This document shows positions 36,500-54,188 of a stretch of DNA of 64,000 bases, one piece after another; within the stretch, counting starts at the first letter, position 1; each line of letters opens with the position of its first letter. This DNA comes from Acidobacteriota bacterium (GTDB lineage Bacteria > Acidobacteriota > Terriglobia > Acidiferrales > UBA7541), in contig JAJPIE010000037.1 in the NCBI GenBank assembly GCA_021324935.1, positions 1-64,000 of the forward strand, in the 5' to 3' direction. The notes under the pieces are model-generated. The model was not told the DNA's origin. It did not search any database and saw only the letters and a program-made list of their open reading frames with translations. Position numbers and translations under genes: made by a program.

Positions 36500-38341
36500 G
36501 TGAAACGAATTCTCCAATGCGGCGGCCTCCTGATGGTTCTGCTGGCGGCGGCAAGCGCGCGCGCGCAGTTGCAGGTCGGAGACACGACCATGCGCATGAA
36601 CGGCACGCTCACCGGCGGCTATTCGGCCGGCTACGGAGATCAGATCCCCTCGAATCACAGCGTGAACTTTGGCGCGGACGCGCAACTCAGCGGCGATTAC
36701 TACAACCCGAATTTTCTAAACTTCGATATCACCCCGTATTACAACCGTTCCACGTCCGATTCGACGTTTCAATCCTTGACCGATGCCTCGGGACTGAACG
36801 CGAATGTGAACCTGTTTACGGGCAGCAGAACCCCGGGTTACGTAAGCTTCAACTACACGCGGAACTCGACCGGAAATTTCGGATTGATCGGGACGCCGAA
36901 TTTCACCACGATCGGCAACGGATACGGTTTTGGCATCGGATGGAGCCTGTTGCTTCCGGACAAGCCGACCCTCTCTTTCAGCTATTCGCAGGGTTCGGGA
37001 GGCGGGAACGTTTATGGGACGAATGAGGAGTCGCATTCCGCCCTGAAAACGTTCAACCTGCGTTCCAGCTATATGCTTGCGGGCTGGAACCTGAACGCCT
37101 ACTATCAGCGCCTCAGCAACGATTCTCAGTTGCCGACGTTTCTTTCCGGAGAGACGAATCTGAGCTACAGCTCGACGACCGGCAATGTCCTGGGAGTGAA
37201 CGGGTCGCATGCCCTTCCGTGGAACGGCAGCGTATCGATGTACTACACTTACTCGACCTATTCGGGCCATTTCAACGATACCTCGCAACCCTACGACAAC
37301 TTCACGGACTTTTCGACCAACACCGAGGCGGCGAATGTGGTCTTCCATCCGACGAAGAAGTGGAGCTTGTACGGCAGCGAAAATTACACCGACAATTTGA
37401 ATGGCTATTTGTACCAGAATATCGCCAACAACGGCCAGGGCGTTCCGATCAACCAGCAGAATTCGACCTCCAATTCGTTCACCACCAGCGCCGGCGTGGG
37501 GTACAACATTCTCCCCAACCTTTTTGCCCAGGGCCAGATTACCTACTTTCAGCAATCGTACTTCGGGCAAACTTACACGGGAAGCTACATGTCGGGTTTG
37601 CTGGGCTATGGCAAGCGGATCTTCGGCATCTTCAGTCTGTCCGCGAGCGTGATCGACAGCACCAATCAGTTTTCGAACAACAATCTGGGATTCATCGCCA
37701 ACATCGACGGCTTCAAGCGCATCGGAGAGTGGGAAGTTTCCGGGAATCTGAGCTACGCGCAGAATGTGCAGACCCTGCTGGTGACCTACACAACCTCCTA
37801 TTACAATTACGGCGGCAACTTGCATCATCGCCTGGGCAGAGGGAAGCAGGTCACCTTTGCTTACAATGGGTCGCACAGCGGTCTGAACCAGGGCCAGGGA
37901 TCCTACGATTACAGCAACAGTTTTTCGACCACGCTGGCGATGCGCCGCGTCACACTTGGCGCAACGTATATCAAATCCAAGGGACTTTCGATCCTCACCA
38001 GCACGGGTATCCAGCCCATTACGCCGACGCCCGGATTGCCGCCCCTTGGGCAGATTGTTTACAATGGCACCAGCTACGGCGGAAACGTCGGGTTTACCCC
38101 GGTGGCAAGGCTAACCTTAAGCGCATCCTACTCCCACGCCGTGAGCGATACCCTCGCGAACGACATTTCTTCCCAGAATCGCACCGAGATTTTCTACACG
38201 CAGTTGCAATACCGGCTGCGCCGCGTCAACGTTTTCGCGGGCTACACGAAATTTTCCCAGGGGATCAGCGCGGCAGGCACTCCGCCGGGTAACACGTATT
38301 CGTATTTCATCGGAGTGTCGAGATGGCTCAGCTTCTTTTAG
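36500..38341 (+). CDS. Outer-membrane beta-barrel, candidate porin of a porin-cytochrome conduit
   Basis: 613 aa from GTG, 5 nt after GAGG; the track ORF extends upstream into the PPIase gene. Signal peptide KRILQCGGLLMVLLAAASARA. The whole mature chain alternates polar and aromatic residues in strands of about 10 residues (TLTGGYSAGYG, FLNFDITPYYNRST, PGYVSFNYTRNSTGNFG) and ends with WLSFF, the aromatic C-terminal signature recognised by the Bam machinery. It is large enough for 20 or more strands, as in MtrB/PioB-type sheaths that hold a multiheme cytochrome. It overlaps the next gene by 19 nt. The link to a cytochrome conduit rests on context. Confidence 0.8.
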   Translation: MKRILQCGGLLMVLLAAASARAQLQVGDTTMRMNGTLTGGYSAGYGDQIPSNHSVNFGADAQLSGDYYNPNFLNFDITPYYNRSTSDSTFQSLTDASGLNANVNLFTGSRTPGYVSFNYTRNSTGNFGLIGTPNFTTIGNGYGFGIGWSLLLPDKPTLSFSYSQGSGGGNVYGTNEESHSALKTFNLRSSYMLAGWNLNAYYQRLSNDSQLPTFLSGETNLSYSSTTGNVLGVNGSHALPWNGSVSMYYTYSTYSGHFNDTSQPYDNFTDFSTNTEAANVVFHPTKKWSLYGSENYTDNLNGYLYQNIANNGQGVPINQQNSTSNSFTTSAGVGYNILPNLFAQGQITYFQQSYFGQTYTGSYMSGLLGYGKRIFGIFSLSASVIDSTNQFSNNNLGFIANIDGFKRIGEWEVSGNLSYAQNVQTLLVTYTTSYYNYGGNLHHRLGRGKQVTFAYNGSHSGLNQGQGSYDYSNSFSTTLAMRRVTLGATYIKSKGLSILTSTGIQPITPTPGLPPLGQIVYNGTSYGGNVGFTPVARLTLSASYSHAVSDTLANDISSQNRTEIFYTQLQYRLRRVNVFAGYTKFSQGISAAGTPPGNTYSYFIGVSRWLSFF

Positions 38342-39435
38342 AAAAGAGGTCGCTCCTGAGCTTGCAAGGAAAAATGCTGGCGGCGTGCCTGGCCGGGACG
38401 TTGTGCCTGACTCCGGCGGGATTTGCCACGGACAAAAAGAAAAACGAGCCGGTGCGGATCGACATTCCCGAACTGCTTCTGGATGGGGGCCGGAAGCTGC
38501 GCTTCGAGCGGATGTTCAGCACGGAGCAGGAAGTGAAGCCCAAGAAGGGGTTCTGGACGAAGGTCGTGGACGTGGTGATCGGGGCGCCGGACTATCACAC
38601 CATGGTCAGGCCCTACAGCATCACCACCGATTCGAAGGGGCGGATCATCGTCACCGATCCGGGCGCGCATGGCGTGCACATCTTCGACTTCAACAAGGAA
38701 AAATACAAATTTTTGTCGCGCCAGGACACCGATCACAACCCGTTGGTCGAGCCGCAGTGCGTGGCCGTGGACGCCGAAGACCGCATCTACGTGACCGATT
38801 CGGACGCCGGGAAGATTTTCGTCTTCAATCCGAGCGGGAAGCTGGAGCGCGTGATCGGCGCGCTGAAATACGGCGAGGGGTTTTTCAAGCGGCCGACGGG
38901 CATCGCCATCGATTCGGCGGCGCAACGGATTTACGTGAGCGACACTCTGCGCGACCAGATTTTCGAGATGGACATGCAGGGAAGCGTGCTGCGGAAGATC
39001 GGCAAGCGCGGAACGGGCGACGGGGAATTCAACTATCCCACCGAATTGCGGTTGCATGGCGATTCGCTGGCGGTGGTGGAAGCGATGAATTTCCGCGTGC
39101 AGGTGCTGGACAAGAACGGCGAGTACCAATACTCAATCGGGAAGATCGGCGACCATGTGGGGTCGATGTTCCGGCCAAAGGGTGTGGGCTTCGATTCCGA
39201 GGGGCACCTTTATGTGGTCGACGGGATGTGGAGTGTCGTGCAGGTGTTCGATCGGGAAGGACAATTGCTTTATTACTTCGGGAAGCTCGGCACGGCGCCG
39301 GGCGATTTCCAGTTGCCCACGGGCTTGCGCATCGACGACCAGGACCGGATTTATGTGGTGGATTCGTTCAACAAGCGCGTGCAGGTGTATCACTATTTCG
39401 GCGCGGCGAGCGCCACGGGCGGGGTGAAGCCGTGA
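38323..39435 (+). CDS. NHL-repeat beta-propeller protein B
   Basis: A 370-aa secreted propeller: signal peptide (LQGKMLAACLAGTLCLTPAGFA), Lys-rich linker, then about six NHL blades such as RPYSITTDSKGRIIVTDPGA, PQCVAVDAEDRIYVTDSDAG and RPKGVGFDSEGHLYVVDGMW. It is clearly a paralogue of the propeller in unit A, with the same architecture but a shorter tail. Its start lies inside the end of the barrel gene, and its stop overlaps the GTG of the 12-heme gene (GTGA), so the three are translationally coupled. It probably helps localise or assemble the cytochromes. Confidence 0.88.
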   Translation: MAQLLLEKRSLLSLQGKMLAACLAGTLCLTPAGFATDKKKNEPVRIDIPELLLDGGRKLRFERMFSTEQEVKPKKGFWTKVVDVVIGAPDYHTMVRPYSITTDSKGRIIVTDPGAHGVHIFDFNKEKYKFLSRQDTDHNPLVEPQCVAVDAEDRIYVTDSDAGKIFVFNPSGKLERVIGALKYGEGFFKRPTGIAIDSAAQRIYVSDTLRDQIFEMDMQGSVLRKIGKRGTGDGEFNYPTELRLHGDSLAVVEAMNFRVQVLDKNGEYQYSIGKIGDHVGSMFRPKGVGFDSEGHLYVVDGMWSVVQVFDREGQLLYYFGKLGTAPGDFQLPTGLRIDDQDRIYVVDSFNKRVQVYHYFGAASATGGVKP

Positions 39436-41378
39436 AGCAGAAACTTCTCATCGCCGCGCTGGTGTTGCTGGTCACGATGGCCTGCCGATTGGCATTTGCG
39501 CAGACCACGCCTCCGCCACCGACGGGGGACGCGCTGGGCATGCACAACATGTCGGCGGGGAGCGGTTCGTCGGTGACCGCGCCGGGAAGCCTCGGCTGCA
39601 CGTTTTGCCACGCGCCGCACAGCGGATTGGGCGGCGTGACACCGTTGTGGAACCAGCAGTTGTCTCAGCAGACTTACACGCCGTATACGAGCACGACGTA
39701 CAAGCAGAAGGGAAATACGCAGCCGACGCTGGGCGTGACCAGCAGCCTGTGCTTGAGTTGCCACGACGGCACGGTGGCCGTGGGACAGACCGCAGTGTTC
39801 GGAAAAATTCCCGTGAGCGGCGCCTTGAACAACATCGACGTTTTGACCACCAACCTGAGCGGATCCCACCCCTTCAGCCTGGTGTTGCCGATCAAGGATT
39901 CGCCGGACCTGGCCGCATCGCTGGCGGCGCAGGGCGTGACCGCCGATCCGACGGGAGCGGTCAAGCTGGTAAACGGAAATATTGAGTGCACGAGCTGCCA
40001 CAATCCGCACGTGCAAGGCATCGATACCGTGGCGCAGAACTTCCTGGTGCGCGACAGTTCTAACGGGCAGATGTGCCTGGCGTGCCATGATCCGGCGCGC
40101 ACGCTGACCGGGCAGGTAAATCCGCTGACCGGATGGACCGGGAGCATTCACCAGACGGCGACGAATCAGGTGGCGAACACGGCGAATGTGGGTGTGTACC
40201 CGACCGTTGCGGTGAACGCGTGCACTTCGTGCCACATGGAGCACAACGCCGGGGGGCCTTCGCGGCTGATGCGGCCGGCGACGCCCGCGGCGCCGGGTGT
40301 GGACGCGGCTACGCAGGATTGCATTTCGTGCCACGGCGGAACGAACGCGAACATCTCGCCCCTGCCGCTGAACGTTTATGGTGAGTTTTCGAAGATCTCG
40401 CACTTATTGCCGGCGGGCAGCAATCTGCACGACGCGGCCGAGCCGGCGGTTTTGAACAACAATCGCCATGCGACGTGCGTGGACTGCCACGATCCGCACT
40501 CGGGAAATCGGCTTACGGTGTTTGCGCAGCCGCCCGCGATCCGGCCGCCGCAGAGCGGCGTGGAAGGCGTCAGCGCCGCGGACGGCAGTACGGTGCTTGC
40601 ACCGGCGGTGAATCAATACGAAAGCTGTTTCCGCTGCCATGGCACCAGCGTTGGCAAACAGGTGCTGATCAAGTACGGCTACTTGCCGACCCGGCTGGTG
40701 TTTTCGGGCGATCCTCTCAATCTGATCCCGCAGTTCAGCCCAAGTTCCACGTCGAGTCACCCGGTGGTGCATCCCCGGAGCAGCCCATTGCCGCAACCCA
40801 GCTTGCTGACGAACATGCTCAATCAGAACGGCACGGCTTCGAGCCGCCTGGTGGGCTCGCAGATTTTCTGCACCGATTGCCACGCCAGCGACGACAATCG
40901 CGAATTTGGCGGGGCCGGCCCGAACGGACCACACGGCTCGATCTATCCACATATCCTGGAGCGCAACTATCAGTTTTCACAGGCGGGCGTGCCGGGCGGG
41001 CCGGTCACGAACACGTTCCCGACGCCAGACCTGAGCCCGCTGGGACCTTACGCCATGTGCGCGAAGTGCCACGACCTGAACAACGTTATTTCCAACGCGA
41101 GTTGGGCGCAGCACGGGCGGCACATTTCCAACGACGGATTCTCCTGCTCGGTGTGCCACACGGCGCACGGTATGGGATCGGTGAACCCCAGCGTAACCGG
41201 CGAACGGTTGATTAATTTCGATGTGAACGTAGTCGGCCAGAATAACGGCGCGCCCATTTCGTATAACCATGCCACAAACACTTGCACGTTGACCTGCCAC
41301 AATGCCGCGCACAACCCGGATGGCAGCGTCTCCGTGAATGGAACGGTCTTGCCCCAGGTGATGGGAATCAAGCACTGA
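39432..41378 (+). CDS. 12-heme cytochrome c with one CX3CH motif
   Basis: 648 aa from the GTG that overlaps the preceding stop codon; the 349 codons before it in the track ORF are a shadow of the NHL gene. Signal peptide KQKLLIAALVLLVTMACRLAFAQ. I count eleven CXXCH motifs (first at residue 56, GCTFCHAPHSG) plus a final CTLTCH with three residues between the Cys. The first about 220 residues (LGMHNMSAG, GCTFCHAPHSG, LCLSCHDGTV, CTSCHNPHV) mirror the tetraheme protein, so a shared module is extended here by eight more hemes. Likely periplasmic or outer-membrane electron carrier working with the barrel. Confidence 0.88.
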   Translation: MKQKLLIAALVLLVTMACRLAFAQTTPPPPTGDALGMHNMSAGSGSSVTAPGSLGCTFCHAPHSGLGGVTPLWNQQLSQQTYTPYTSTTYKQKGNTQPTLGVTSSLCLSCHDGTVAVGQTAVFGKIPVSGALNNIDVLTTNLSGSHPFSLVLPIKDSPDLAASLAAQGVTADPTGAVKLVNGNIECTSCHNPHVQGIDTVAQNFLVRDSSNGQMCLACHDPARTLTGQVNPLTGWTGSIHQTATNQVANTANVGVYPTVAVNACTSCHMEHNAGGPSRLMRPATPAAPGVDAATQDCISCHGGTNANISPLPLNVYGEFSKISHLLPAGSNLHDAAEPAVLNNNRHATCVDCHDPHSGNRLTVFAQPPAIRPPQSGVEGVSAADGSTVLAPAVNQYESCFRCHGTSVGKQVLIKYGYLPTRLVFSGDPLNLIPQFSPSSTSSHPVVHPRSSPLPQPSLLTNMLNQNGTASSRLVGSQIFCTDCHASDDNREFGGAGPNGPHGSIYPHILERNYQFSQAGVPGGPVTNTFPTPDLSPLGPYAMCAKCHDLNNVISNASWAQHGRHISNDGFSCSVCHTAHGMGSVNPSVTGERLINFDVNVVGQNNGAPISYNHATNTCTLTCHNAAHNPDGSVSVNGTVLPQVMGIKH

Positions 41379-41430
41379 GCCCCGGGCAGCCCGCGCGGAC
41401 GAGGTTCTCCGGGCAATCCCGAAATTGTTT

Positions 41431-42933
41431 ATGAACACTGCAGATTCCGCTCGTGAAACTCGCGGTTCGTCCACCGACAGCCTATTGGGATTTGCCGGGG
41501 TGTTTTTGTTGCTTGGCCTTGCCGCGGGATTGGAGTGCGTGAAACTCGCTTCGCTCCGCGAACCGGGGATTTGGGGACATCTTCGGGCGGGCGCGTGGAT
41601 TCTGCAAAACAAAGCGTGGCCGCACACGGGAATATTTTCCCAGGCGCAAAACTTGAGCTGGCAGGACTTTTCGTGGGGCTACGATGCCCTCGCGGCGGTA
41701 TTGTATCGCTTGGCCGGTCTGCGAGCAGTGCCCCTGCTTTTACTGGTGTCGCGATTCGCGCTTGCGCTGATCTCATTTTTGCTGGCGGGGGGGTGGCGAA
41801 ATCTTTGGCCCGCGGTGATCTTGTCGGCGACCGCGCAATACGTGCTTTTCTCGATGGGACCAAGCTCCGCGATTGTTTCGGTGGTTTTTGGGGGAATCGA
41901 GCTGCTGGTTTTGTTCGGCGCACGCGAGTCAGGCTCCCTGCGCATGCTGCGGTGGCTGCCGGCGCTGTTCGTGTGCTGGGCAAATCTCGATGGCGGGTTT
42001 GTTTACGGAATCGCGCTGTACGGCATTTTTGTCGCGGCATCACTCCTGGAGCACTGGCAGATCAGGAGCAAATTGCATTGGCTGGATCAACCAGCAGGGC
42101 AAGCACCCCTGAAATCCTGGCTACTGTATGGCGGAGCGTGCGTCCTGGCCAGCTTGCTGAATCCTTACACGATTCACGCCTATGGCTCCTTTCTGACGAA
42201 CGAATTCAGCCCGGTGAACCAGCACCTGCCCTTCTACACCGCCATGAGTTTTCGCCAGCCACAGGATTACGTGCTGATGCTGCTAGGGATGGTTGCTTAT
42301 CTTGGCCTGGGGCTGCGCCGCTCGCGGAATGCGTTTTCGATTGGCGTGCTCGTGGGCAGCATGGCGCTGGCGTTTCACGCGCAACGCGAGGCATGGGTGC
42401 TCGCGCTGGCGTCGGCAGCGGTGATTGGCCACTGCATCCTTCGAAGTGCGGAGGCAGGCGCCGCTTCCGGTTTGCGCGATTGGAACGCGCCGCGGCTCGG
42501 AGTGGCGGCCGCGGCCCTTTCCGTTGCGTTGGTCCTTTTCTTTGCGCATGTGCCGAAACGGCAAGACGTATTGCTTGCCAAAGTAGCCGAGCACTTTCCG
42601 GTGCGTGCCGCGGATTTCCTTCGCACGCATCCGCAGCCGGCTCCTTTCTTCAATGTCTATCAATGGGGTGCATTTCTCACCTGGTACCTGCCGGAATATC
42701 CCGTGGCGATTGACGGACGCCGCGGCCTTTATCCCGAAGAGACCGAACTCGGCTACTTCAAAGCGATGAACGCGGATATTCCTTATCGCCAGTTTCCGCC
42801 CATGAATCGGGCGCGCACCTTTCTGATGGACAAGGCGGGAATTATGGGAGAGGCGCTGCGCGGCGTGAAGGGTTTTCAGGCGATTTATGAAGACAATCTC
42901 TCGATTGTGTATTCCCACGAGACCCAGGAGTAA
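41431..42933 (+). CDS. GT-C-like polytopic membrane protein
   Basis: 500 aa with about ten hydrophobic helices, from the ATG (the track TTG is two codons earlier). After a first membrane helix comes a loop with GIWGHLRAGAWILQNKAWPH and WQDFSWGYDALAAVLY, in the position of the acidic first loop of GT-C glycosyltransferases. The C-terminal domain ends with FFNVYQWGAFLTWYLPEYPV and AIDGRRGLYPE. The same blocks occur in the minus-strand gene at 51.2-52.7 kb, so the two are paralogues. Probably a polyprenyl-phosphate-sugar-dependent transferase or an accessory; the substrate is unknown. It begins the plus-strand acylation cluster. Confidence 0.7.
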   Translation: MNTADSARETRGSSTDSLLGFAGVFLLLGLAAGLECVKLASLREPGIWGHLRAGAWILQNKAWPHTGIFSQAQNLSWQDFSWGYDALAAVLYRLAGLRAVPLLLLVSRFALALISFLLAGGWRNLWPAVILSATAQYVLFSMGPSSAIVSVVFGGIELLVLFGARESGSLRMLRWLPALFVCWANLDGGFVYGIALYGIFVAASLLEHWQIRSKLHWLDQPAGQAPLKSWLLYGGACVLASLLNPYTIHAYGSFLTNEFSPVNQHLPFYTAMSFRQPQDYVLMLLGMVAYLGLGLRRSRNAFSIGVLVGSMALAFHAQREAWVLALASAAVIGHCILRSAEAGAASGLRDWNAPRLGVAAAALSVALVLFFAHVPKRQDVLLAKVAEHFPVRAADFLRTHPQPAPFFNVYQWGAFLTWYLPEYPVAIDGRRGLYPEETELGYFKAMNADIPYRQFPPMNRARTFLMDKAGIMGEALRGVKGFQAIYEDNLSIVYSHETQE

Positions 42934-42945: not shown

Positions 42946-44517
42946 ATGGCCAGCGCGGCACAGATCGAATCGCTACCGGCGGTGAAGGCGCGTGAGTTGT
43001 GGAAGTTGGGGGACGCGGCGGTTGTGCTGGTCTATTCGAGCGTGGTTCTCTGGACGCTGCAATACCACGAAAAATGGGCGGACGAAGCGCAGGCGTGGCT
43101 GATTGCGCGCGATCTGGATTTGAAGACCATCTGGTTTCACGAGTTGCGTTACGAAGGTACGCCGGGGCTTTGGCACACGATATTGTGGATCGCGCAGCAC
43201 GTTTTTCATGCGAAGTACGGAGCGCTCGGTTACATCGGCGCGGTGTTCGCGATCGCGGGCGCGGCAGCGCTGCTCTTCCTCGCGCCGTTTCCGCGTTACA
43301 TCCGCTGGCCGCTCGCTTTCACCTACGTGATGGTCTACCAATACGCCCTGATCTCCCGGCCATATACACTTTTTCCTTTGCTGGCATTCCTGGCGGCTTA
43401 CTTTTACAAGGACGTGGCCAAGCCCGAACGTATAAGCCTTGTATTGGCGATTCTCGCCTTGCTTACCCTGCACGGCACGATCCTCGCGGGTTGTCTTGGA
43501 TTGACCTATTTAATTCAGGGATTGCAAATGTGGCCGGTCCTGGACGTTACGGTCAAGCGTCGCTACTTCGTGTGTATTGCGGGGCTCACGCTGCTATTTC
43601 TGTTCATTGTGCTGATCATGAAGCCAACACCGGATGTCGCGGAGTTTGCCATGAAGGAAAAGGTGAATCAGCTTGGCCATGTTTTTCAGCAAGCACAGCC
43701 AACTACACTTCGCAAAACGGGTGCGGTGATTTCGGGCGCATTCCTTGACTACACCGTACCGTCCGCGGCATTTATCTTGCTCGCCTTTGCGTGGTGCGCC
43801 TATCGGCGGAAACCGCTGGAGTTTGCGCTACCGGTTTCGTCCCTGGTTGTTTTCTACGCGCTTATCCATGGCTACCCGCATCACCATGGAACCGTGTTTG
43901 TCGCGGCGATTACCGCGATCTGGATTGCCTGGCCGACAAACGACCCGCCTTTGGCACGCATAGTCGGGGAAAATTGGCCCCATATCGGTATAACTGCTCT
44001 GCTGCTGGTTCTTTGCACGGTCAATCTCTTTGACGCTGCCGTGGTCATTCATCGAGAGTATCTATACCCCTATAGTGGTTCTGAAGATGCAGCCAAGTTC
44101 CTGAAAAATGTGGGCGCGGACCGACAGCCGCTCTTCGGGCTGCTCTACGGGGTCGCGGCGATTCAAGCCTATTTTGACCACAACATCCTGACAAATCTGC
44201 ACACCGCATATTTTCATCACGGATTGCCTGATGAAGAGGCGGGCACAACCTTGAATCTGTCCGAGTTGCACCGGGTCGACCCGGAATACATTGTTGTCTA
44301 TTCAGACGAACCAGAATTGATGATGCAGTTGGGAGCACCCTACCTCTTCAACGAGGGCTACAGAATCGTCCACTTTTCGGATGGATACTACCTGTATAAG
44401 CGAGCAGTCTACCAGCGCGATACATACTTCATTTTTCAGAAACCTCGCGCTGGCCAGGGTTCGGACACGGGTTTTATGCCCTTACCAGAGCCGGCAGGAA
44501 ACGAGGAAGCACCATAG
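42946..44517 (+). CDS. GT39/PMT-like membrane glycosyltransferase
   Basis: A 523-aa polytopic membrane protein with about eleven helices. The first periplasmic loop carries EKWADEAQAWLIARDLDLKT and LRYEGTPGLWHTILW. The Asp-Glu pair followed by a Trp-rich loop is the catalytic signature of the GT-C superfamily (PMT, ArnT, PglB-like), which takes sugars from polyprenyl carriers. The start has GGGGAA 5 nt upstream, 12 nt after the previous stop. It presumably acts on the same surface molecule as the acylation enzymes downstream. The acceptor cannot be told. Confidence 0.75.
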   Translation: MASAAQIESLPAVKARELWKLGDAAVVLVYSSVVLWTLQYHEKWADEAQAWLIARDLDLKTIWFHELRYEGTPGLWHTILWIAQHVFHAKYGALGYIGAVFAIAGAAALLFLAPFPRYIRWPLAFTYVMVYQYALISRPYTLFPLLAFLAAYFYKDVAKPERISLVLAILALLTLHGTILAGCLGLTYLIQGLQMWPVLDVTVKRRYFVCIAGLTLLFLFIVLIMKPTPDVAEFAMKEKVNQLGHVFQQAQPTTLRKTGAVISGAFLDYTVPSAAFILLAFAWCAYRRKPLEFALPVSSLVVFYALIHGYPHHHGTVFVAAITAIWIAWPTNDPPLARIVGENWPHIGITALLLVLCTVNLFDAAVVIHREYLYPYSGSEDAAKFLKNVGADRQPLFGLLYGVAAIQAYFDHNILTNLHTAYFHHGLPDEEAGTTLNLSELHRVDPEYIVVYSDEPELMMQLGAPYLFNEGYRIVHFSDGYYLYKRAVYQRDTYFIFQKPRAGQGSDTGFMPLPEPAGNEEAP

Positions 44518-44566: not shown

Positions 44567-44779
44567 ATGAGCAGGCAAGAAAAGCCTCCGGAAACAACCA
44601 TTCCGAAAGATTCGTTTATGGATCTCATGTGGAGGCACCGGCTGTGGTGGATGCTGCCACTCGGGGTTTTGCTGCTGTTGCTAGGGGCCATTTACGCGCT
44701 GGAGCACCTTTCAAAGACGGACTCGGAGATGTATCCGACGTCGTCAAGCACCCGCGTGGAATTGCCATATTCGGGTTGA
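44567..44779 (+). CDS. Small membrane protein, DUF5989-like
   Basis: 70 aa from the ATG after AAAGGAAATG; the track ORF starts 62 codons earlier. One helix (WWMLPLGVLLLLLGAIYAL) is preceded by a cytoplasmic stretch with SFMDLMWRHRLWW, the pattern of DUF5989 proteins found next to SGNH and acyltransferase genes. As I recall the family, members end in a PFIYTLF-like tail; here the C-terminus is VELPYSG and the aromatic motif is missing. It overlaps neither neighbour and lies 3 nt before the SGNH gene. Its position parallels DltX. Confidence 0.6.
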   Translation: MSRQEKPPETTIPKDSFMDLMWRHRLWWMLPLGVLLLLLGAIYALEHLSKTDSEMYPTSSSTRVELPYSG

Positions 44780-44782
44780 TAC

Positions 44783-46006
44783 ATGTCGCCGGCCAAAAGA
44801 GAATTAATCCTTGCCGCGCTTGTCTTTTTCGCGCTTCCGGTCCTGGCGGAGCTTGTCCTGCGCGCGGCACGTGTTCCCTTTGATGCGCAACTCTACGGCC
44901 CGGATTGCGCACTGGGTTGGCGGCTGCGGCCCGGCGCCAGTGGCCGGGTGTCCACCGAAACACCGCAGTGGGTTCGCATCAACAGCCGCGGATTTCGCGA
45001 TCGCGAGCGAACTTTCGAAAAGCCGGCGGACACATTTCGCATCGCCGTGCTGGGGAATTCCTGGACGGAAGCGCTACAAGTCCCCCAAGAGAAAACGTAC
45101 ACGGCAGTCCTGGAACAGCAACTCAACGATAGAAAGTGCTTTGCGGGAAAGCGCGTGGAAGTGCTGAATTTCGGGGTGGCCGGCTATTCCACCGCGCAGG
45201 AGCTCCTCCTGCTGCGGCAGAAAGTCTGGAACTATCATCCCGACCTGATTCTGCTGGCCATCTACCCCGCGCGAGACATAGCGAACAACATTCGTGAACT
45301 GAACAACGCGGTGACGCCGGAACGCTCGCCATACTTCGTTTTTCGCGGGGAACAGCTTGCTTTGGACGATTCTTTCCGTTCGCTCCCGGCCCTCCAACCG
45401 TGGCAAATCCGGCTGCAATCGACGGAGTTCTGGTTCGACGACCATTTCCGAACGCTGGAAGCCATCAACACGGTCCAACGATACGGGAAAATCCGTGTGG
45501 CCATGGCCGCGGCGAGAGAACGCGCCGAGCAATCCGGCATGGACAATCTGGAATACGCCATTTATGCGCCGCCATCCACGCCGGCGATGCAACAGGCCTG
45601 GAAGGTTACGGAAGCCTTACTGCTGGCGATGAACAGGGAGGTGCGCGAGCGTGGCGCGGAGTTTCGGTTGGTCACCCTGGCCACACGGCCACAAGTCATT
45701 CCCGATCCGGCGAAAAAAGAGGACTTGTTGCGAAAACTCGGCGTCCAGGACTTTTCGTATGCGGATGAGCGGATCAACAAGCTGGCGGTAGCAAACGGGA
45801 TCGCGGTCACCCAACTGGCGCCTGCGCTCGCGGCATATGCGGAGGCGCACAACGTTTATCTGAATGGGTTCAATGCCTCGAATTATGGTGCCGGCCATTG
45901 GAATGAGACTGGCCACCGGCTGGCTGCGGAGACCATTGGCGAGGATTTGTGCCGCGCGCCGCAAGATGCGGCCGTCCATATTTCGACGACGCGCGCCAGG
46001 GAGTGA
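44783..46006 (+). CDS. Membrane-anchored SGNH/GDSL-fold protein, DltD-like role
   Basis: A 407-aa protein with one N-terminal membrane helix (LILAALVFFALPVLAELVL), the rest outside. SGNH motifs: nucleophile block IAVLGNSWTEALQVP (Ser near residue 94), LNFGVAGYSTAQELLL (Gly block), and the C-terminal NYGAGHWNETGHRLAAE with the catalytic His. No strict DxxH is seen, but HWNETGH fills the position. In Dlt-type and alginate-type systems such proteins carry the acyl group on Ser and pass it to the polymer. Its place before the ligase, carrier and MBOAT genes supports the same role here. Confidence 0.8.
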   Translation: MSPAKRELILAALVFFALPVLAELVLRAARVPFDAQLYGPDCALGWRLRPGASGRVSTETPQWVRINSRGFRDRERTFEKPADTFRIAVLGNSWTEALQVPQEKTYTAVLEQQLNDRKCFAGKRVEVLNFGVAGYSTAQELLLLRQKVWNYHPDLILLAIYPARDIANNIRELNNAVTPERSPYFVFRGEQLALDDSFRSLPALQPWQIRLQSTEFWFDDHFRTLEAINTVQRYGKIRVAMAAARERAEQSGMDNLEYAIYAPPSTPAMQQAWKVTEALLLAMNREVRERGAEFRLVTLATRPQVIPDPAKKEDLLRKLGVQDFSYADERINKLAVANGIAVTQLAPALAAYAEAHNVYLNGFNASNYGAGHWNETGHRLAAETIGEDLCRAPQDAAVHISTTRARE

Positions 46007-46013
46007 GCCGCGA

Positions 46014-47723
46014 GTGACCACCCACTTCGAATTTTGCAGACAACTTCGCCAGCGCTTAAGCGCACACGAGGACCGGGTACTCTTGCGCGTGGTGGTTTCG
46101 CCGGACTTTGAGCAACCTCGAGAGTTCACGGGCAAAGCGATTCTCGAACGCGCCGAGCAGTTAGCGGCACCGTTCAGTTTGCCTGGCCCACGATGCGTTG
46201 TTTTGCTGCTGCTGCCGCATTCGCCGGAACTTTTCCTGCTGCAACTTGGACTGGTGCTTGGCGGTCACATCCCTGCGATTCTGGCGTGGCCCACCAGCCG
46301 TATCGATGCGGAAAAGTATCAGCGCAACTTGGTGCATCAACTAAGCCATCTGCCGGCGGACCGGCTAGTCACGCTGCCGCGGTTGGCAGAAAATCTTCAG
46401 GGCAGCCTTCCGTATCCTGTGTGCGGCGTTCCGGTCGAAAATGCCGGGGCATTTGAAAAGGTGTTTCCCGCGGCGCCGGTGACACAGCGCCTGGAAAGCG
46501 GCAAATTTGAGCCCCGAAAATTCCGCACCGATCCGGATACGCTGTTCCTGCAATTTTCCGGTGGCACCACCGGGGCGCAGAAGGCCATCGTCGTCACGGC
46601 GGAGATGCTGCGCGCGCAATTCCGCCAGTTGACCGAGGCGCTGGATTTTTCCTCCGTGGATTCCGTGGCATCTTGGTTGCCGCTTTATCACGATATGGGT
46701 TTGATTGCATGCTACTGGATGCCGTTGTGGCATGGCGCGGCGTCGTTGCAGATGGCGGCGAACGATTGGGTGCTGAATCCGGAGCTTCTTCTCAAATATA
46801 CTGCCCGCTATCGCGTGAGCTTCTGCTGGCTGCCGAATTTTGCGTTTTCCTACATGAGCCAACGGAGAGAACAGATGTCCCGGCACGATCTTTCGAGCGT
46901 GCGCGCGTGGATCAACTGTTCCGAACCGGTGCGGCTTAAATCCGTCATGGAGTTCGCGAGTGCGTTCGCGGATTGCGGGGTGCGCAAAGAAAGCCTGCAG
47001 GCGTCGTACGCCATGGCAGAAACGGTGTTTGCAATTACGCAGTCGCAATTGGGAAAGGAACTTGCCGTCGTGCCGCGGCAGCGGGTGCAGCAAGGGAAGC
47101 ACAGCTATTCCGAACTGGCGTTTGATCTGATCGACGACGTATACGTTTCCTCCGGAAAGCCCTTGAGCGGCACGGAAATTAAAACGGTGGCGGCGGATGG
47201 TTCACGCTGCCCGGACAACATGCCGGGGGAGATTTGGGTCCGCACGCCTTCGCTGTTTTCCGGCTACTGGAGCGCGGAAGGGTTTCAAACGCATTCCTTG
47301 AATGACGGATGGCACGCGACTGGCGATTTTGGATTTGTGAGGGACGGAGAACTCTATGTGATTGGGCGCTTCAAGGACATTGTGATCGTCGGCGGCAACA
47401 ATATTTTTCCGGAAGACGTGGAAGCGGTGGTGAATTCGATCGAGCGCGTTTATCCGGGGCGCGTGGTGGCCTTCGGGGTGGAGGACGAGGAGTTCGGCAC
47501 GCAGAGCCTGGCCGTGGTTGCAGAGATGAAGGGCGAGTTCAACGAAGAAGCCGCTTCCCAGCTCGAAGCGGCAATCCGCAAGCTGGTGATGACCGCGATT
47601 GGCACGGCCGCGCGCTACGTGGCCGTGGTTCCACAGCGCTGGATCGTGAAGAGCACCGCGGGGAAGATTTCCCGGCGCGAAACGCGCGAGCGATTTGTAC
47701 GCGAGCGCCTGAACAGCGTCTGA
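46014..47723 (+). CDS. AMP-forming acyl ligase (FAAL/DltA-like)
   Basis: About 569 aa from GTG, 7 nt after the previous stop; the track ORF starts 50 codons earlier inside the SGNH gene. Adenylate-forming motifs: FLQFSGGTTGAQKAIV (phosphate loop), LPLYHDMGLIACYW, ASYAMAETVFA (adenine pocket), HATGDFGFVRDGELYVIGR, GGNNIFPEDVE and the catalytic Lys in STAGKISRRE. LPLYHDMGL and the overall layout resemble fatty-acyl-AMP ligases, which load acids onto carrier proteins. It should charge the acyl carrier protein encoded directly downstream. The acid itself is not evident. Confidence 0.85.
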   Translation: MTTHFEFCRQLRQRLSAHEDRVLLRVVVSPDFEQPREFTGKAILERAEQLAAPFSLPGPRCVVLLLLPHSPELFLLQLGLVLGGHIPAILAWPTSRIDAEKYQRNLVHQLSHLPADRLVTLPRLAENLQGSLPYPVCGVPVENAGAFEKVFPAAPVTQRLESGKFEPRKFRTDPDTLFLQFSGGTTGAQKAIVVTAEMLRAQFRQLTEALDFSSVDSVASWLPLYHDMGLIACYWMPLWHGAASLQMAANDWVLNPELLLKYTARYRVSFCWLPNFAFSYMSQRREQMSRHDLSSVRAWINCSEPVRLKSVMEFASAFADCGVRKESLQASYAMAETVFAITQSQLGKELAVVPRQRVQQGKHSYSELAFDLIDDVYVSSGKPLSGTEIKTVAADGSRCPDNMPGEIWVRTPSLFSGYWSAEGFQTHSLNDGWHATGDFGFVRDGELYVIGRFKDIVIVGGNNIFPEDVEAVVNSIERVYPGRVVAFGVEDEEFGTQSLAVVAEMKGEFNEEAASQLEAAIRKLVMTAIGTAARYVAVVPQRWIVKSTAGKISRRETRERFVRERLNSV

Positions 47724-47738
47724 TCGGAGGAAATGCCA

Positions 47739-47993
47739 GTGATTCCCGATAGCCAAACGATTCGCACCGCCGCCACCGAGGCGGCCTCACAACTGATCGG
47801 CAGACCGCTGCGGCCGGGGCAGCGCCTGGTCACCTCCGGGCTGATCGATTCGCTCTCGGTGTTGAAGTTGATCGGCCTGCTGGAGAAAAAGCTGCGCGTC
47901 GTCATTCCTCCCGAAACACTGCAACCGGAGGATTTCGACGACGTCGACTTGATTGTCGAGACCGTGGAGCGCGTGGCGAAACCAGCGGCGTGA
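47739..47993 (+). CDS. Acyl carrier protein
   Basis: 84 aa, acidic, four-helix carrier. The phosphopantetheine attachment Ser is in GLIDSLSVLKLIG, near residue 38. I prefer GTG as start because GGAGG lies 8 nt before it; the ATG two codons upstream, used by the track, is only 2 nt from GGAGG. It is encoded between the ligase and MBOAT genes with short gaps, so it is the likely cytoplasmic thioester donor for the MBOAT, as DltC is in D-alanylation. Confidence 0.88.
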   Translation: MIPDSQTIRTAATEAASQLIGRPLRPGQRLVTSGLIDSLSVLKLIGLLEKKLRVVIPPETLQPEDFDDVDLIVETVERVAKPAA

Positions 47994-48026
47994 ACGCGAG
48001 GACGCCGGAGATTCGGATCAAGGCAC

Positions 48027-49460
48027 ATGGCGTTTAACTCAGTTCTCTATCTTGGATTGCTCGGGGTCGTGGCGGCGGTGTTCTGGCTGCTGCCTGCGCG
48101 TTGGCGCCGAGGTTTTGCTTTGCTCAGCAGCGTGGCGTTTTATGCATCGTGGGGCCTGGCGTTTGTTTGGCTGCCGCTGCTGGTGGCTGGCATCGTGCAC
48201 ATCGCTGGAGAAAGGATCACGGCGGAATCCACGGGCAAGAAGCGTTGGTCGCGATTGGGCATGGCCGGCGTGCTGGCGCTGCTGATTGTATTCAAGTATC
48301 GGGGTTTTATTGCCGACAATCTCCACGCGCTTGGTTTTTCTTTCGGCGCCCACCCTCATCTGATGTTTGCCGCGATTGCGTTTCCGATAGGCATTTCGTT
48401 CTACAGCTTCGAAGCGATCGCGTACCTGGTGGATTTGCGCCAGGGCCGCGTGACGATGCAGCGCTTTGCCGACCTGTGCCTGTTCTTTTACTTCTGGCCA
48501 AACATTCTTTCCGGGCCGATTGTTCGCGCGCGCGAGCTGATGCCGCAGCTTTCCTTTCAGAAGCGATTCGAGCCACGATTCGTGTTCGAAGGGATGGACC
48601 GGATCGTTTGGGGGCTCGTGCAGAAGAATGTGATCGCGAACATGCTTGGGATTTGGGTTGACCGCGGGTTTGACGCAAATGGACCAATCACTCTGCCTAC
48701 ACGGGATGCCTGGCTGCTGGCGATTGGATTTGCGTTGCAAATTTATTTCGATTTTTCCGCGTATACAAATATGGCCATCGGCGCCGCGCGGCTGCTGGGC
48801 GTGACACTGCCCGAAAATTTCCGCCAGCCGTATCACGCCGCCACGCCGCCGGAATTCTGGGCGCGCTGGCACATGACGCTCTCGCGTTGGGTCCGCGACT
48901 ATTTGTTCTTCCCGATCAACGCGAAGCATGCGGGCGCGCCACTGCCTTTGTATCTGAGCCTGCTGGGTGTGATGGCTTTGGTGGGGCTTTGGCACGGCGC
49001 GGGCTGGGGATTCCTGGTGTGGGGCGCGCTGCATGGCGCGTACCTGGTGCTGTATCGCGCGTATGAAAGCTGGAAGGATGCGGAGGGCGCGGCTCACGAG
49101 CAGAGAATCGCAGGATGGTTCTGGAGAATTCTGACGTTGACTGCCGCGACTGCGGCCTGGGTGCCGTTCCGTGCGACATCGCTCGGCAAAGCGTGGACGA
49201 TCTGGGGCTCGATGTTTTGGCGGTGGAGCGGCAGAGGCAGCCTCGGAGCGGGATTTTGCGCTTTCGTTGCCGTGGTTGCGGGGTTTTGTGCGATTGAGCC
49301 GTGGTTGGTGCGGAAACTGAGCGACATCGAAGAAAATGCGGGAACGCAGGGGCCTTCGGTGTTTCGAGTGCTGGTGCGGCCCATCGCGTATTCGATTGGG
49401 TTGCTGCTGTTTCTGCTTTGTGACGAGCACAACACGCAATTTATTTACTCGCAGTTCTGA
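48027..49460 (+). CDS. MBOAT acyltransferase with C-terminal FxYxxF shuttle motif
   Basis: A 477-aa polytopic enzyme of the AlgI/DltB family. Landmarks: FPIGISFYSFEAIAYLVDL, FFYFWPNILSGPIVRARELM, FWARWHMTLSRWVRDYLFFP and the catalytic His in VGLWHGAGWGFLVWGALHG. The protein ends in HNTQFIYSQF, so the last six residues fit FxYxxF. In Dlt-type pathways the Tyr of this hexapeptide takes the acyl group on the outer face and hands it to a Ser on a partner protein; when no DltX-like carrier is used, the motif is fused to the MBOAT, as here. Substrate unknown. It ends the plus-strand cluster. Confidence 0.92.
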   Translation: MAFNSVLYLGLLGVVAAVFWLLPARWRRGFALLSSVAFYASWGLAFVWLPLLVAGIVHIAGERITAESTGKKRWSRLGMAGVLALLIVFKYRGFIADNLHALGFSFGAHPHLMFAAIAFPIGISFYSFEAIAYLVDLRQGRVTMQRFADLCLFFYFWPNILSGPIVRARELMPQLSFQKRFEPRFVFEGMDRIVWGLVQKNVIANMLGIWVDRGFDANGPITLPTRDAWLLAIGFALQIYFDFSAYTNMAIGAARLLGVTLPENFRQPYHAATPPEFWARWHMTLSRWVRDYLFFPINAKHAGAPLPLYLSLLGVMALVGLWHGAGWGFLVWGALHGAYLVLYRAYESWKDAEGAAHEQRIAGWFWRILTLTAATAAWVPFRATSLGKAWTIWGSMFWRWSGRGSLGAGFCAFVAVVAGFCAIEPWLVRKLSDIEENAGTQGPSVFRVLVRPIAYSIGLLLFLLCDEHNTQFIYSQF

Positions 49461-49517: not shown

Positions 49518-51200
49518 TCATTGGATGCGGGTGCCGTCAGGGAGAAAAACCGGGAAGTTGTCGTTTGGGCGGGCGAGGACGAGTTGTTGCGCGGCGGCCA
49601 TGCGGTCGTAATCGAATAAAAATAATCCGAATTTATAGTGCAGGGCGAGATCATTGGGAGCCTGCGCGATGGCCCACTGATACTCGGCGACGACGTCCTG
49701 GAAGCTTTCCGCCGGCGCAGAGGCGCGCAGCAGGAGGCTTTGCAACATTTCAACGTGATTCAACTGCGTGGTGAAGGGCGGGCGTTGCACGCGATCCACC
49801 ATCTCGGCGGCGACGCGGGCGCGGTCCTGCGCAGTGAAAGCCAACAGGCGTTCGCATTCGCCCTCGGTGAGGGGCTCGGTGGTTGAAGCCGATTTCTGAA
49901 TTGCGGGTGGAAGAGTCTTCACCACCTGCTCGAAGACTTCGCGGGCAAACAGATAGTTGCCGAGGGGAGTGAAGTGCACATGGTCGTAAAGCATCTCGCC
50001 GCCGACGGTTGCGTCGCGACTCTGGCTCGCCAGCATTGCCTCCGTATCGAGCAGCGCGGCTGAGCCTGCGGAGTTTTCTGCCGTTGAGCGGATGATGTCG
50101 TTGATGCGGGAATCGGCGCGAAAACGCAGCGTGTCCAGGTCGCGTGCGCGGGAATAATATTCTTTCGCGGCCTGAAAATTCCCGATCCGCGTGTAGCAGC
50201 GCGCGATGCGAAATTCCAGCTCGGCAAATTGATCGTCGATCTGGCGGGCGGAAGCGTAATACTTCAGAGCGTCGTCGTACGATTGGGTTACTTCTGCGGC
50301 CGCACCTTGCTGGACCAGCGTGTTCCAGGAATCGAGCGCCCGCGGAGCGAGGTCCGCGCGATGCAGCGAACCGAAAGGGGCCGAATCGCGCAGATTCGTG
50401 GCCACTGTGGAAAGCAACAAGTGTGCACCGGTTTCGCGGCCCAATTGCACGAGATCTCGCAGGTTGCCGGCAAAATTCCGGTAGGCCGGCTGCATGCGGG
50501 GGGAATCGGCACGCACCTGTTTGTCCAAAAACATTTCCATTCCGCGCCATTCCTGCTTTGGCTGGCCGCCTTCCTCCAGCAACTGACCCAGGCGCGAAGA
50601 TCGCACGAAAATGCTGGCGCGAATCACAGGCAGGCTCATCGAGCCGGTGGTCAGTACCGTCCCCGGGCCGTACGGCCCGACAACCTCGTTGCTGCCGATG
50701 TACGCGACGTAAAAATCCGGCTGATATTTTGCAAGGCCGCGTGCCATCGCCAGGCTGACGTGCGAATTGATCGCCACCATGCCTGTATTGACCACTTCGA
50801 AGTTCACTCCCGGAAAACGCGTGCGCAGCATGACTTCGAGATACCGGCTGAATCCATAGGCAAAATCCGGATCGCCCATGGCCGCGGATTCGCCCAATAC
50901 GAAAATCCGGTACGTGTTCTTCGGCTTCACCGGATCGATGGAAAAAAACTGCGGCGTCTTGATCATGCCGGGCGGGAAATAAGGCGCGGCGAAGAACAGG
51001 TTGTAACAGTCAGCGGGCCGGCCGTGAATGGTGCAGGGTTCCATGAGGCTGGTGGAATAGCCGACGTTGAAAGCGCGCAGCGCGATTTCGGTCAGGACCA
51101 GCAGTAAAACGGGAGCTGCAACGGCAAAAGCAATGCGGGGCATCCAAAACGTCCAGCCGCGCCGGGTGCTTTCTGTTTTCTCTGTGCTGACCTGGGCCAT
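49518..51200 (-). CDS. SGNH-fold protein with TPR region
   Basis: 560 aa from the ATG at MAQVSTEKTE; the track adds 18 codons. One N-terminal membrane helix (IAFAVAAPVLLLVLTEIAL). SGNH blocks: IFVLGESAAMGDPDFAYG with the Ser nucleophile, VAYIGSNEVVGPYGPG and the C-terminal DHVHFTPLGNYLFA with Asp and His. Between the catalytic blocks a TPR-like helical stretch is inserted (DDALKYYASARQIDDQFAEL, CYTRIGNFQAAKEYYSRARD). It is convergent with the MBOAT gene and may be a second acceptor or transferase of the same system. Confidence 0.8.
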   Translation of the reverse strand: MAQVSTEKTESTRRGWTFWMPRIAFAVAAPVLLLVLTEIALRAFNVGYSTSLMEPCTIHGRPADCYNLFFAAPYFPPGMIKTPQFFSIDPVKPKNTYRIFVLGESAAMGDPDFAYGFSRYLEVMLRTRFPGVNFEVVNTGMVAINSHVSLAMARGLAKYQPDFYVAYIGSNEVVGPYGPGTVLTTGSMSLPVIRASIFVRSSRLGQLLEEGGQPKQEWRGMEMFLDKQVRADSPRMQPAYRNFAGNLRDLVQLGRETGAHLLLSTVATNLRDSAPFGSLHRADLAPRALDSWNTLVQQGAAAEVTQSYDDALKYYASARQIDDQFAELEFRIARCYTRIGNFQAAKEYYSRARDLDTLRFRADSRINDIIRSTAENSAGSAALLDTEAMLASQSRDATVGGEMLYDHVHFTPLGNYLFAREVFEQVVKTLPPAIQKSASTTEPLTEGECERLLAFTAQDRARVAAEMVDRVQRPPFTTQLNHVEMLQSLLLRASAPAESFQDVVAEYQWAIAQAPNDLALHYKFGLFLFDYDRMAAAQQLVLARPNDNFPVFLPDGTRIQ

Positions 51201-51228
51201 GGCGGTTGTTCTCAAACTCCCTTGTGTT

Positions 51229-52689
51229 TCATCGACGCGTGAACACCGTCGCAATGTCGTCGTGATAGACCATCTGAAAGCGATTATCGACGGTGAGAAG
51301 TTTTGCCAGAGGAAGCGTGGAATCGAGAATCACCAGGTGAGACTCATCCAGGTATGGATCGGTGGTATAGGAGGGGAACGCCGACTGGGATTCATAGAAA
51401 ACCTTGTCCATGGCGTCGCCATAAAGATCGTTGCGGCCGTCCACGGCGACGGGCAATTCTGGCAGATACCACATCAGGAAGCCGCCCCAATTCAGATTGT
51501 TATAAAGCGGCCCGGAATAGCCCTGGCGGCGGAGAAAATTCACTGCGTTTACCGGGTAGTCCGCGCTGATAGCGCGATCGATTCCGCGCGCATCGAAATC
51601 TACCAGCGGTGCCGCCACCACCAAGGCCGCGGCCACCGCGGCGCCGGCCACCGCCAGTTCCATCCAGGATTCCAGGCGTGAGCGTTTTTCCTGCGCAACG
51701 GGAAAATCCGCGAGGCAAGCAATTGCGGAAAAACAGAGAAACCAACCGTCACGCGTGGTGCGAAAGGCAACGGCGCTGGCCACCACCAGCAGGAGCAGCT
51801 TGAAGGGCTCGATTTTTCGCTGCCATCCCACGGCGTAAAAGCCGGCGGCGCCCAGAAACAGTTCCGTGAAGTTGCTCAAGCCACGAAAGCTCAGCGGCTG
51901 CAACTCCATGATGATGTTGTAGGCGAACTTGGATTTCGTATAGACGAGCACGGCTACATAGGGGCGGTAGAGATTCGGGCCTGCCAAAGTAGCCAGAAAG
52001 CAGAGACCCAGAATGACGAGCAAGCGCTCGGCCGGGAAGGAGGCGGGCTTCAGAAAGCTCGGGGTCCAGCCGGCCGCGTCAAGCCACTGCTGCAGCACGT
52101 TCACGCCCACGAACAGGCAGACGGCGAATAAGCCGTAAATGAACTGAATGTGCAGATTCGCCCACAGTAGCAGCAACGGCGGCAGCCAGTAGAGCAGTTC
52201 GATCCGTTCGCGGCGCTGCGCCTCCAGCAATATAGCCAGTGTGAGGCAGTAAAGCATTTGAGAAAAAAACACTGGTCGCGGCATGCCATTGAAGAGATAG
52301 GCGGAACACCCCAGCGCTGCAAGAATCACCGCCAGCCAGAAATTCCCAGAAATGCGGCGCGCCATCCAATATGCGGAATAAGCCACGCCGATAGTTAGCA
52401 AAGTGCCGAAAACGCCCATCCCGGCAAGTCCAAACCATGCATAGAAGCGCGATAGAAGCACTTCATAGCCCCAACTGTAAGCGACCCAAGGATGGTCCGC
52501 GGCGGTTCGCGAGAGAATGCCGGTGTGCGGCACGGCGGAGTGCTCGACGATCCAATCGCCGACCTTGAGGTGCCACCACAAATCATAATCGATGACGCAA
52601 TATTTCAGTCGCAGCGCATTGACGCCGATGAAGGCAAGAAAGCCTGAAAGGACAGAAAGTTGCACCCAGCGATTGCGAAGAAAACTCAT
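51229..52689 (-). CDS. GT-C-like polytopic membrane protein, paralogue of the 41.4-kb gene
   Basis: 486 aa from the ATG that overlaps the stop of the upstream FAD gene (ATGA); the track adds 33 codons. About ten helices. The first loop has [21 protein letters not shown] and [17 protein letters not shown], and the end has [20 protein letters not shown] and GRNDLYGD. The same motifs in the same order occur in the plus-strand protein. Asp-containing WWHL is better kept here than in the paralogue. Likely a polyprenyl-sugar-dependent transferase or a related membrane enzyme; no function is proven. Confidence 0.72.
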
Positions 52690-54188
52690 GTGCTTGGAGC
52701 GGCGGCGGGGACTCGACTCGCCGGAGCGGCAAATTGCTCGCCGGCCCGGCCAGATTCGTGATATTCGCCATCTTCGTTGACGGCCCAAATGTCGTACTTT
52801 TCCTCGCCGGCCAGAATATTTCGCGCCGCCAGCATGGCGGTCATCATGGCGTGGTCCTGATTGTTATATTTGTGCATGCCATTGCGACCCACGAGATGAA
52901 GATTCGGGGAATGCGCGGCCAAAGCTTTACGGATGACGTCGACGTTACGACGATAGTCGTCGTCGTACACCGGATACGCCTTGGCCTGGCGAATCACGCA
53001 GCCGTCTACCACGTCGGCTGCCGCGCCAAGCCCCACTTGTTCGATTTCCTTTTTGGCCATGGCGATCAATTCCTCATCCGGTGTGGCCCACAGGCCATCG
53101 CTTTCGAAGCAGAAATACTCCAAGCCGTAGCAGCAGTAGTTGGGATCGGGAACCATTTCTGGCGACCACGATTTGTAGTTCTGGACGCGGCCGACCTTCA
53201 CATTCGGGTCGTGAATGTAAATCCAATTGTCATTGAAGCGATTTTGTTCGCGAAGGATCAAACCGATTGTGATGAAGTCGCGGTAGCGCAGGGACCTTGC
53301 GGAATGCTGTGCATTCTCGGGCAGGCGTGGCTCGATTTGCGAAACCAATTGGCGCATGGGCATGGAGGAAACCAGATGCTCGGCGCGATATTCTTCCAAT
53401 GTTCCGTCCGAGTTTCTGGCCGTGACCGTCCAGCGATTTGCAACCGCATCCCAGCAGCAACCGGTCACGCTGCGCCCGAGCAGGACTTCGCTGCCCATTT
53501 TGCGAACCTTATCCGCGCACGTTTCCCACATCATGCCCGGCCCCAGCCGCGGATAGCGGAAGGTGTCGATCAGCGTCTTGACGACCTGCTTGCGATCTTT
53601 CGTCATCCGCTTGGGCAGAATCGCATTCTTGATCGCCGTGGCCAGCGAAAGTCCCTTGATGCGTTGCGCGGCCCAATCCGCCGAAATTTCCTTGCAGCTC
53701 ATGCCCCAGACTTTTTCCGTGTAGGTTTTGAAGAAAATGCGGAACAGCCGTTCGCCAAACTGGTTCACCACCCAGTCTTCAAACGATCTCGGATGCTGCG
53801 TGGGATGCAATTTCGCCTGGAGAAAAGAAAAAACGCAGAACATGGATTCCAGGAAACCCAGCTTGGAAAGCGCTTCGAAGGGCTTCAGGGGATATGCGTA
53901 AAACTCGCCGCGGTAATAAATTTTCGATGAGCGCGGGCGCTCCAGCATGTCCGCGCCGAGGATCTCCGTCCAAAGATCCTCGACCTCGCGCGATTTGGAG
54001 AAGAAGCGGTGGCCGCCGATGTCGAAGCGATAACCGTGATAGGCGACGGTTCTCGAAATGCCGCCCACATATCGGGGGTCGCTCTCCAGCACCAGCACGC
54101 GCTGCCCGTGCTTGCTCAGTTCGTAGGCGGCGGTAAGGCCGGCGGGTCCTGCGCCGACGATGATGGCCTTGTATTCGGGATTGCTCAT
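52686..54188 (-). CDS. FAD-dependent oxidoreductase, UDP-galactopyranose mutase/amine-oxidase type
   Basis: A 500-aa flavoprotein. The FAD-binding motif [20 protein letters not shown] lies at the N-terminus, followed by [14 protein letters not shown] and [15 protein letters not shown], a block shared with UDP-galactopyranose mutases and related proteins of polysaccharide loci. [17 protein letters not shown] is also typical of that group. The C-terminal FAD site is [18 protein letters not shown]. It probably modifies a nucleotide sugar or lipid-linked sugar in the cytoplasm. Translationally coupled to the downstream membrane gene, so both are likely part of the surface-glycan pathway. Confidence 0.82.

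Follow-up and report, generated by a model that had tools for sequence, protein, structure and literature searches.

The acidobacterial DNA analysed here, a 64,000-nucleotide stretch of contig JAJPIE010000037.1 (the window), carries a five-gene cassette on its plus strand at 44567-49460. The genes encode a small membrane protein, an SGNH-fold protein, an AMP-forming acyl ligase, an acyl carrier protein and an MBOAT protein, and are separated by 3, 7, 9 and 33 bases, in that order. The cassette is probably a carrier-fed MBOAT-SGNH system for trans-envelope O-acylation of a surface glycan. Its ligase, carrier and MBOAT genes recur jointly in distant Acidobacteriota, so their grouping is not due to chance. 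A preliminary description had listed the same five genes, all of which are present with family matches and tight spacing, and had equated them one to one with the Dlt proteins, which D-alanylate the teichoic acids of Gram-positive bacteria. This equivalence does not hold: the small protein lacks the FxYxxF acyl-shuttle motif, which is found on the MBOAT, and the models for DltA, DltB and DltC are missed widely. The order of events proposed there (an acid is activated, loaded onto the carrier, and passed to the MBOAT and then to the SGNH protein) is supported.

The source genome is 4.5 Mb in size and 91% complete. TolC-type and AcrB-type genes are encoded within the window, and these fit a host with an outer membrane.

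Conservation of the ligase, carrier and MBOAT genes

A 400-genome sample of the class contains six ligases which are 54-59% identical to the window ligase (tier 1). Five of these six are found in the order ligase-carrier-SGNH-MBOAT (L107, L109, L110, L111 and L112). A second ligase group, about 35-41% identical, has adjoining carrier and MBOAT genes in seven of seven loci (L113-L119). At phylum level, L162 also has the three genes; L161 has an unconfirmed carrier. Counting the window, the two nearest ligase groups and L162, and leaving L161 aside for its unconfirmed carrier, the three genes are together in 14 of 15 loci; the exception is L108. A ligase on a Leptolinea plasmid stands alone, with sugar transport genes around it, and is uninformative. 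The full five-gene arrangement of the preliminary description is not conserved: ligase, carrier and MBOAT stay together and most loci have an adjoining SGNH gene, of varying subfamily, but no gene for the small protein was found next to the cassettes of relatives.

The ligase-linked MBOATs form a single clade of 14 rows in a quick tree (SH-aLRT 87); the L162 MBOAT falls outside this clade, on a long branch. Linkage to a ligase requires one change on the MBOAT tree, compared with about 11.5 when the labels are shuffled. Distances between ligases and between MBOATs are strongly correlated (r = 0.915, 0/5000 permutations as high), and the correlation holds within the second group (19/5040). No description of the gene set was found in the open-access literature; with the search so confined, the absence is weak.

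Ligase, carrier and built-in shuttle

On profile evidence, the ligase is of the FAAL (fatty-acyl-AMP ligase) type and not DltA. It scores 279 bits against PRK07768 (FAAL-like) and 246 bits against the PRK09192 FAAL, but 34.5 bits against the DltA model TIGR01734 (cut-off 559.85), which other ligases of the same genome match better; the preliminary description had also placed it nearer to FAALs than to DltA. The PDB sequences which it matches at 1e-20 are FAAL-type enzymes, as are 15/15 of the best PDB matches to a profile of 16 ligase relatives. The alignment of this profile with the Legionella FAAL 3kxw continues across the insertion region, which lies between YAMAE and SSG. The ligase also contains the FAAL-type stretch SWLPLYHDMGL, and its catalytic-loop lysine, K552 (numbering from 46011), is invariant. 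The carrier bears a DSL phosphopantetheine site and is 46-51% identical to the equivalently placed carriers of tier-1 relatives; it scores 23.1 bits against the DltC model NF003464 (cut-off 68). Since the ligase is FAAL-type and the DltA and DltC models are missed, the acid is likely to be something different from D-alanine; the ligase family makes a fatty acid, or a related aliphatic one, probable. In L109, the MBOAT gene is directly followed by genes for a second carrier, a ketosynthase, a second AMP ligase and a hexapeptide transferase (L109:12468-16715), which possibly make or edit the acyl group.

The MBOAT is closest to DltB by sequence profile as well as by structure. DltB provides the top Foldseek matches to its AlphaFold2 (AF2) model (pLDDT 82.9), and the DltB equivalog TIGR04091 is matched at 157.8 bits (cut-off 375). 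The C-terminus has two extra transmembrane (TM) helices (408-437 and 442-465), followed at the very end by FIYSQF, a form of FxYxxF. Motif comparison assigns His323 as the catalytic histidine and Tyr474 as the shuttle tyrosine; H323, F472, Y474 and F477 are invariant in 16/16 sequences. FxYxxF is present in 83 of the 90 long MBOAT frames collected, and the remaining seven seem to be wrong frames or sequences cut at contig ends. The motif is an acyl shuttle, which is carried by DltX in Dlt systems and fused to the MBOAT in PatA, AlgI, WssH and others; MBOATs with a fused shuttle are said to take acyl-CoA, without a carrier (PMC12148441). By its motifs and gene neighbours, the window MBOAT system is a hybrid, with a fused shuttle yet beside a ligase and a carrier. 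The consistent linkage of ligase and carrier to fused-shuttle MBOATs tends to speak against acyl-CoA as the donor and against a carrier-free system. In a Lachnospiraceae locus (L046:14-2243), an MBOAT ending in SFVYGAF adjoins a weak ligase match (23%); the pairing of fused shuttle and ligase may also occur in Firmicutes.

The small protein is best classed, from its score and motifs, as a relative of DUF5989 and not as a full member. It scores 24.5 bits against PF19451 (cut-off 27), covering positions 7-37 of 49, and has no shuttle motif. A search seeded with it independently matches DUF5989 members of other genomes (best 2.8e-5). Its tyrosine (..SEMYPTS..) aligns ungapped with the DUF5989 shuttle tyrosine, in a register read by eye, but the flanking phenylalanines are gone; its C-terminus, ..VELPYSG, lacks FxYxxF. 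With these phenylalanines lost, its motif is not that of a working DltX; the working copy is on the MBOAT. A role as functional DltX is rejected for want of the motif, although the protein is distantly of the shuttle-microprotein type.

In nearly all of the loci read in this class, the C-terminus of the intact DUF5989 protein is PF(I/V)YTLF or a near variant (shuttle-motif sites: L167-L191, L116:3570-3707 and L119:5785-5904). In L116 and L119, the MBOAT tails score 51.4 and 38.3 bits, respectively, against the DUF5989 model (cut-off 27). From the shared shuttle end and these tail matches, the MBOAT tail is apparently the same element as DUF5989; intact DUF5989 proteins look like free shuttles. 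They are found in clusters with genes for an SxtJ-like protein, a NodU/CmcH carbamoyltransferase and an SGNH protein, with no visible MBOAT. In the clusters with SGNH proteins related to that of the window, the DUF5989 gene precedes the carbamoyltransferase gene and is not immediately 5' of the SGNH gene (PF19451 search). This arrangement suggests an undescribed trans-membrane transfer system. Nothing on DUF5989 was found in the open-access literature, and that scope makes the absence weak; the shuttle motif gives an unnamed family beside carbamoyltransferases a testable role.

SGNH partners and genomic setting

The SGNH protein of the cassette has Ser93 and His372 invariant within its family. 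Its AF2 model (pLDDT 84.8) matches the fold of SGNH enzymes, with CgnD (8a2n, crocagin biosynthesis) as the best Foldseek match. Pfam and NCBIfam scans gave no DltD match for this protein, only Lipase_GDSL_2 and a weak AlgX. Relatives in its subfamily (37-45% identical) adjoin NodU/CmcH carbamoyltransferases in L151-L154 and L158; one directly adjoins an MBOAT in L157, and there is a more distant case in L160. L116, of the second ligase group, also has an SGNH protein of this subfamily. The tier-1 SGNH proteins form one family with invariant Ser91, Asp375 and His378, which is a different subfamily. By subfamily assignment, the SGNH partner is exchangeable among cassettes, which suggests a route to new acceptors.

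A second SGNH gene adjoins the MBOAT gene on the opposite strand and may be part of the system. Its product, a TPR-SGNH protein, has S123, N189, D424 and H427 all in place. It is rare: the window itself is the only strong match among 161 genomes of the class. A relative in G245 (56% identical) is likewise convergent with an MBOAT gene which adjoins a ligase and a carrier. The presence of the catalytic residues and the same convergent placement in G245 are serious grounds for regarding the TPR-SGNH protein as a candidate terminal transferase. It could be a second terminal transferase, the true one, or a de-acylase.

The cassettes of relatives are mostly found amid polysaccharide genes, including those for priming sugar transferases, Wzz, glycosyltransferases, FkbM and a carbamoyltransferase; this favours a surface glycan as the target, in line with the surface polymer previously proposed. 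In the window, the cassette is the end of a run which encodes, in order, a 16-heme cytochrome, an NHL protein, a 4-heme protein, a SurA-type isomerase, a putative barrel, a further NHL protein, an 11-heme cytochrome (heme counts are of CxxCH motifs) and two GT-C-like proteins. The run had been thought to begin at 44567, but it extends further 5': this position is immediately preceded by the GT-C-like genes and a cytochrome gene, at gaps of 12-49 bases. The order of the cytochrome block is identical in G245, largely retained in G177, G339 and G058, and partly retained in G087. From its gene content, the block looks like an extracellular electron-transfer conduit. Coordinates are collected in Table 1.

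Table 1. Genes of the cassette and its surroundings in the window
Feature	Position	Strand	Match or basis
Small protein, one TM helix, 70 amino acids, degenerate DUF5989 relative	44567-44779	+	PF19451 2.9e-5
SGNH-fold protein, N-terminal TM helix, candidate terminal transferase	44783-46006	+	Lipase_GDSL_2 29.2 bits (cut-off 32.9)
FAAL-type acyl-AMP ligase	about 46014-47723 (start taken as GTG 46014)	+	AMP-binding 140 bits (cut-off 29.9)
Acyl carrier protein, 86 amino acids	47733-47993	+	PP-binding 19.9 bits, 9e-4 (cut-off 20.8)
MBOAT with FIYSQF tail	48027-49460	+	PF03062 63 bits, 4e-17 (cut-off 27)
TPR-SGNH protein, one TM helix, convergent with MBOAT	49518-51254	-	
Context block, outside the cassette: 16-heme to 11-heme cytochrome, with two NHL propellers and a putative outer-membrane barrel	30996-41378	+	
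GTC1, GT-C-like membrane protein, same run	41425-42933	+	No Pfam match; putative GT-C by topology
GTC2, GT-C-like membrane protein, WADEAQ near N-terminus, same run	42946-44517	+	No Pfam match; putative GT-C
GTC3, GTC1-related membrane protein	51229-52788	-	49-55% relatives

A cassette at every relative of the 11-heme locus is ruled out; of the loci surveyed, the window and G245 alone have one. The G245 cassette belongs to the other group (ligase 36% and MBOAT 34% identical), whereas the flanking cytochrome genes mostly share 46-62% identity. A GTC1 relative (33%) adjoins the 11-heme gene in G245, and GTC3 relatives are found at the cytochrome loci of G245 and G339. The same cytochrome locus is therefore occupied by two different cassette versions, each with the rare TPR-SGNH protein and GTC1/GTC3; this suggests a link between cassette and locus, though from as few as two cases. 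Beside GTC3, on the minus strand at 52686-54188, is a gene for a FAD-dependent oxidoreductase of PRK07208 type (787 bits, cut-off 451), which may alter a precursor sugar or lipid.

Mechanism, alternatives and known systems

In the proposed mechanism, the FAAL-type ligase would convert a free carboxylic acid to an acyl-adenylate and load it onto the phosphopantetheine arm of the carrier, as expected from its family and sequence. The MBOAT, using His323, would receive the acyl group from the carrier on the cytoplasmic side and place it on its own Tyr474, in the FIYSQF tail, in the periplasm; the motif and the helices are present, and the chemistry is modelled on PatA and Dlt. A serine of the cassette SGNH protein or of the TPR-SGNH protein would then accept the acyl group and transfer it to a hydroxyl of a surface glycan. 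The degenerate DUF5989 protein would probably be a structural adaptor of the SGNH protein, the relic of a shuttle seen near the same SGNH type elsewhere. The acceptor would most likely be an exopolysaccharide or a glycan built by the GT-C-like proteins. A bolder version is conceivable but doubtful. It would be a separate, third design of trans-envelope acylation in Gram-negatives, in which a built-in-shuttle MBOAT with interchangeable SGNH heads, a TPR-SGNH protein among them, is supplied with long or unusual acyl groups by the FAAL and carrier; in this lineage, coupling to the cytochrome/GT-C-like locus would lead to acylation of a glycan in the outer electron-transfer apparatus.

Several observations weigh against trans-envelope glycan acylation by this cassette. 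In block III, the cassette SGNH protein has Arg164 where its relatives have Asn, and position -3 from its His is not Asp; with Asn and Asp both missing, it is perhaps weak or not the transferase. The cassette itself is outside any exopolysaccharide cluster, and the window has no fatty-acid-modifying genes to point to the acid. L108, a close tier-1 ligase, stands alone. The ligase-MBOAT correlation is not significant within tier 1 alone (103/720), and the labels of the non-ligase MBOATs are partly based on just 1.5 kb of flanking DNA.

The resemblance of the MBOAT to DltB, in both structure and profile, and the weak DltC match of the carrier could indicate a genuine Dlt-type system, which would place an amino acid such as D-alanine onto a polymer in a Gram-negative bacterium. 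This is very improbable: the DltA model is matched poorly and other ligases of the genome outscore this one, the DltB and DltC scores are also far below their cut-offs, the ligase has the FAAL-type SWLPLYHDMGL stretch and the small protein lacks the DltX motif. Alternatively, the MBOAT and SGNH proteins could be an ordinary acetyl-CoA-fed O-acetyltransferase with the ligase and carrier as unrelated neighbours. The broad MBOAT family normally uses acetyl-CoA with the same tail (PMC12148441), and FxYxxF is found in nearly all of the MBOAT frames collected. However, recurrent adjacency, the single clade of ligase-linked MBOATs and their co-divergence with the ligases make mere neighbourhood quite unlikely.

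FAALs mostly supply polyketide or peptide synthases. The ligase and carrier might accordingly build an acyl precursor for a glycolipid or a small molecule that is secreted, and the MBOAT and SGNH proteins would acylate this product in place of an envelope polymer; the L109 genes just 3' of the cassette, for a ketosynthase, another carrier, another ligase and a hexapeptide transferase, would suit this. But such neighbours are found in one locus only and several loci are amid polysaccharide genes, while the MBOAT tail and the SGNH protein put the last step in the periplasm. This alternative is unlikely, and acylation of a surface glycan is the preferred reading.

Judged by its components, the cassette would function like Dlt without being a member of it. 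Both pair a ligase with a carrier for it to load (putatively so here), and have a DltB-fold MBOAT (presumably fed by the carrier here), an SGNH protein as the last component and an FxYxxF tyrosine shuttle. They differ in that the cassette ligase is FAAL-type, the shuttle is fused to the MBOAT, the small protein has no working DltX motif, the Dlt equivalog cut-offs are missed and the host is an outer-membrane bacterium. The ligase shares its sequence family, insertion region and full-length alignment with known FAALs (Legionella FAAL 3kxw, FadD32 and FadD28); those feed synthases, whereas this one is paired with an MBOAT. The SxtJ-DUF5989-NodU/CmcH-SGNH clusters have the same SGNH subfamily, and the small protein of the window is a relative of their DUF5989; however, they have no MBOAT seen and no ligase-carrier pair, and their DUF5989 has an intact FIYTLF end.

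Structurally, the cassette appears to belong among the fused-shuttle MBOAT-SGNH systems, apart from their rule of no carrier. Like PatA/PatB, AlgI/AlgJ/AlgX and WssH/WssI, it combines an SGNH partner with an MBOAT whose C-terminus bears two additional TM helices and a fused FxYxxF; the MBOAT histidine and tail motif and the SGNH Ser93 and His372 are all present. Unlike the cassette, which has both a carrier and a ligase, the PatA/AlgI/WssH O-acetylation systems are fed by acetyl-CoA and have neither (PMC12148441). MBOAT-SGNH acylation has been divided into carrier-fed Dlt systems with a separate DltX and acyl-CoA-fed, carrier-free systems with a fused shuttle (PMC12148441). This division is probably not strict, as the cassette joins a carrier and a ligase to a fused shuttle, and it would let acids beyond acetate or D-alanine reach surface polymers.

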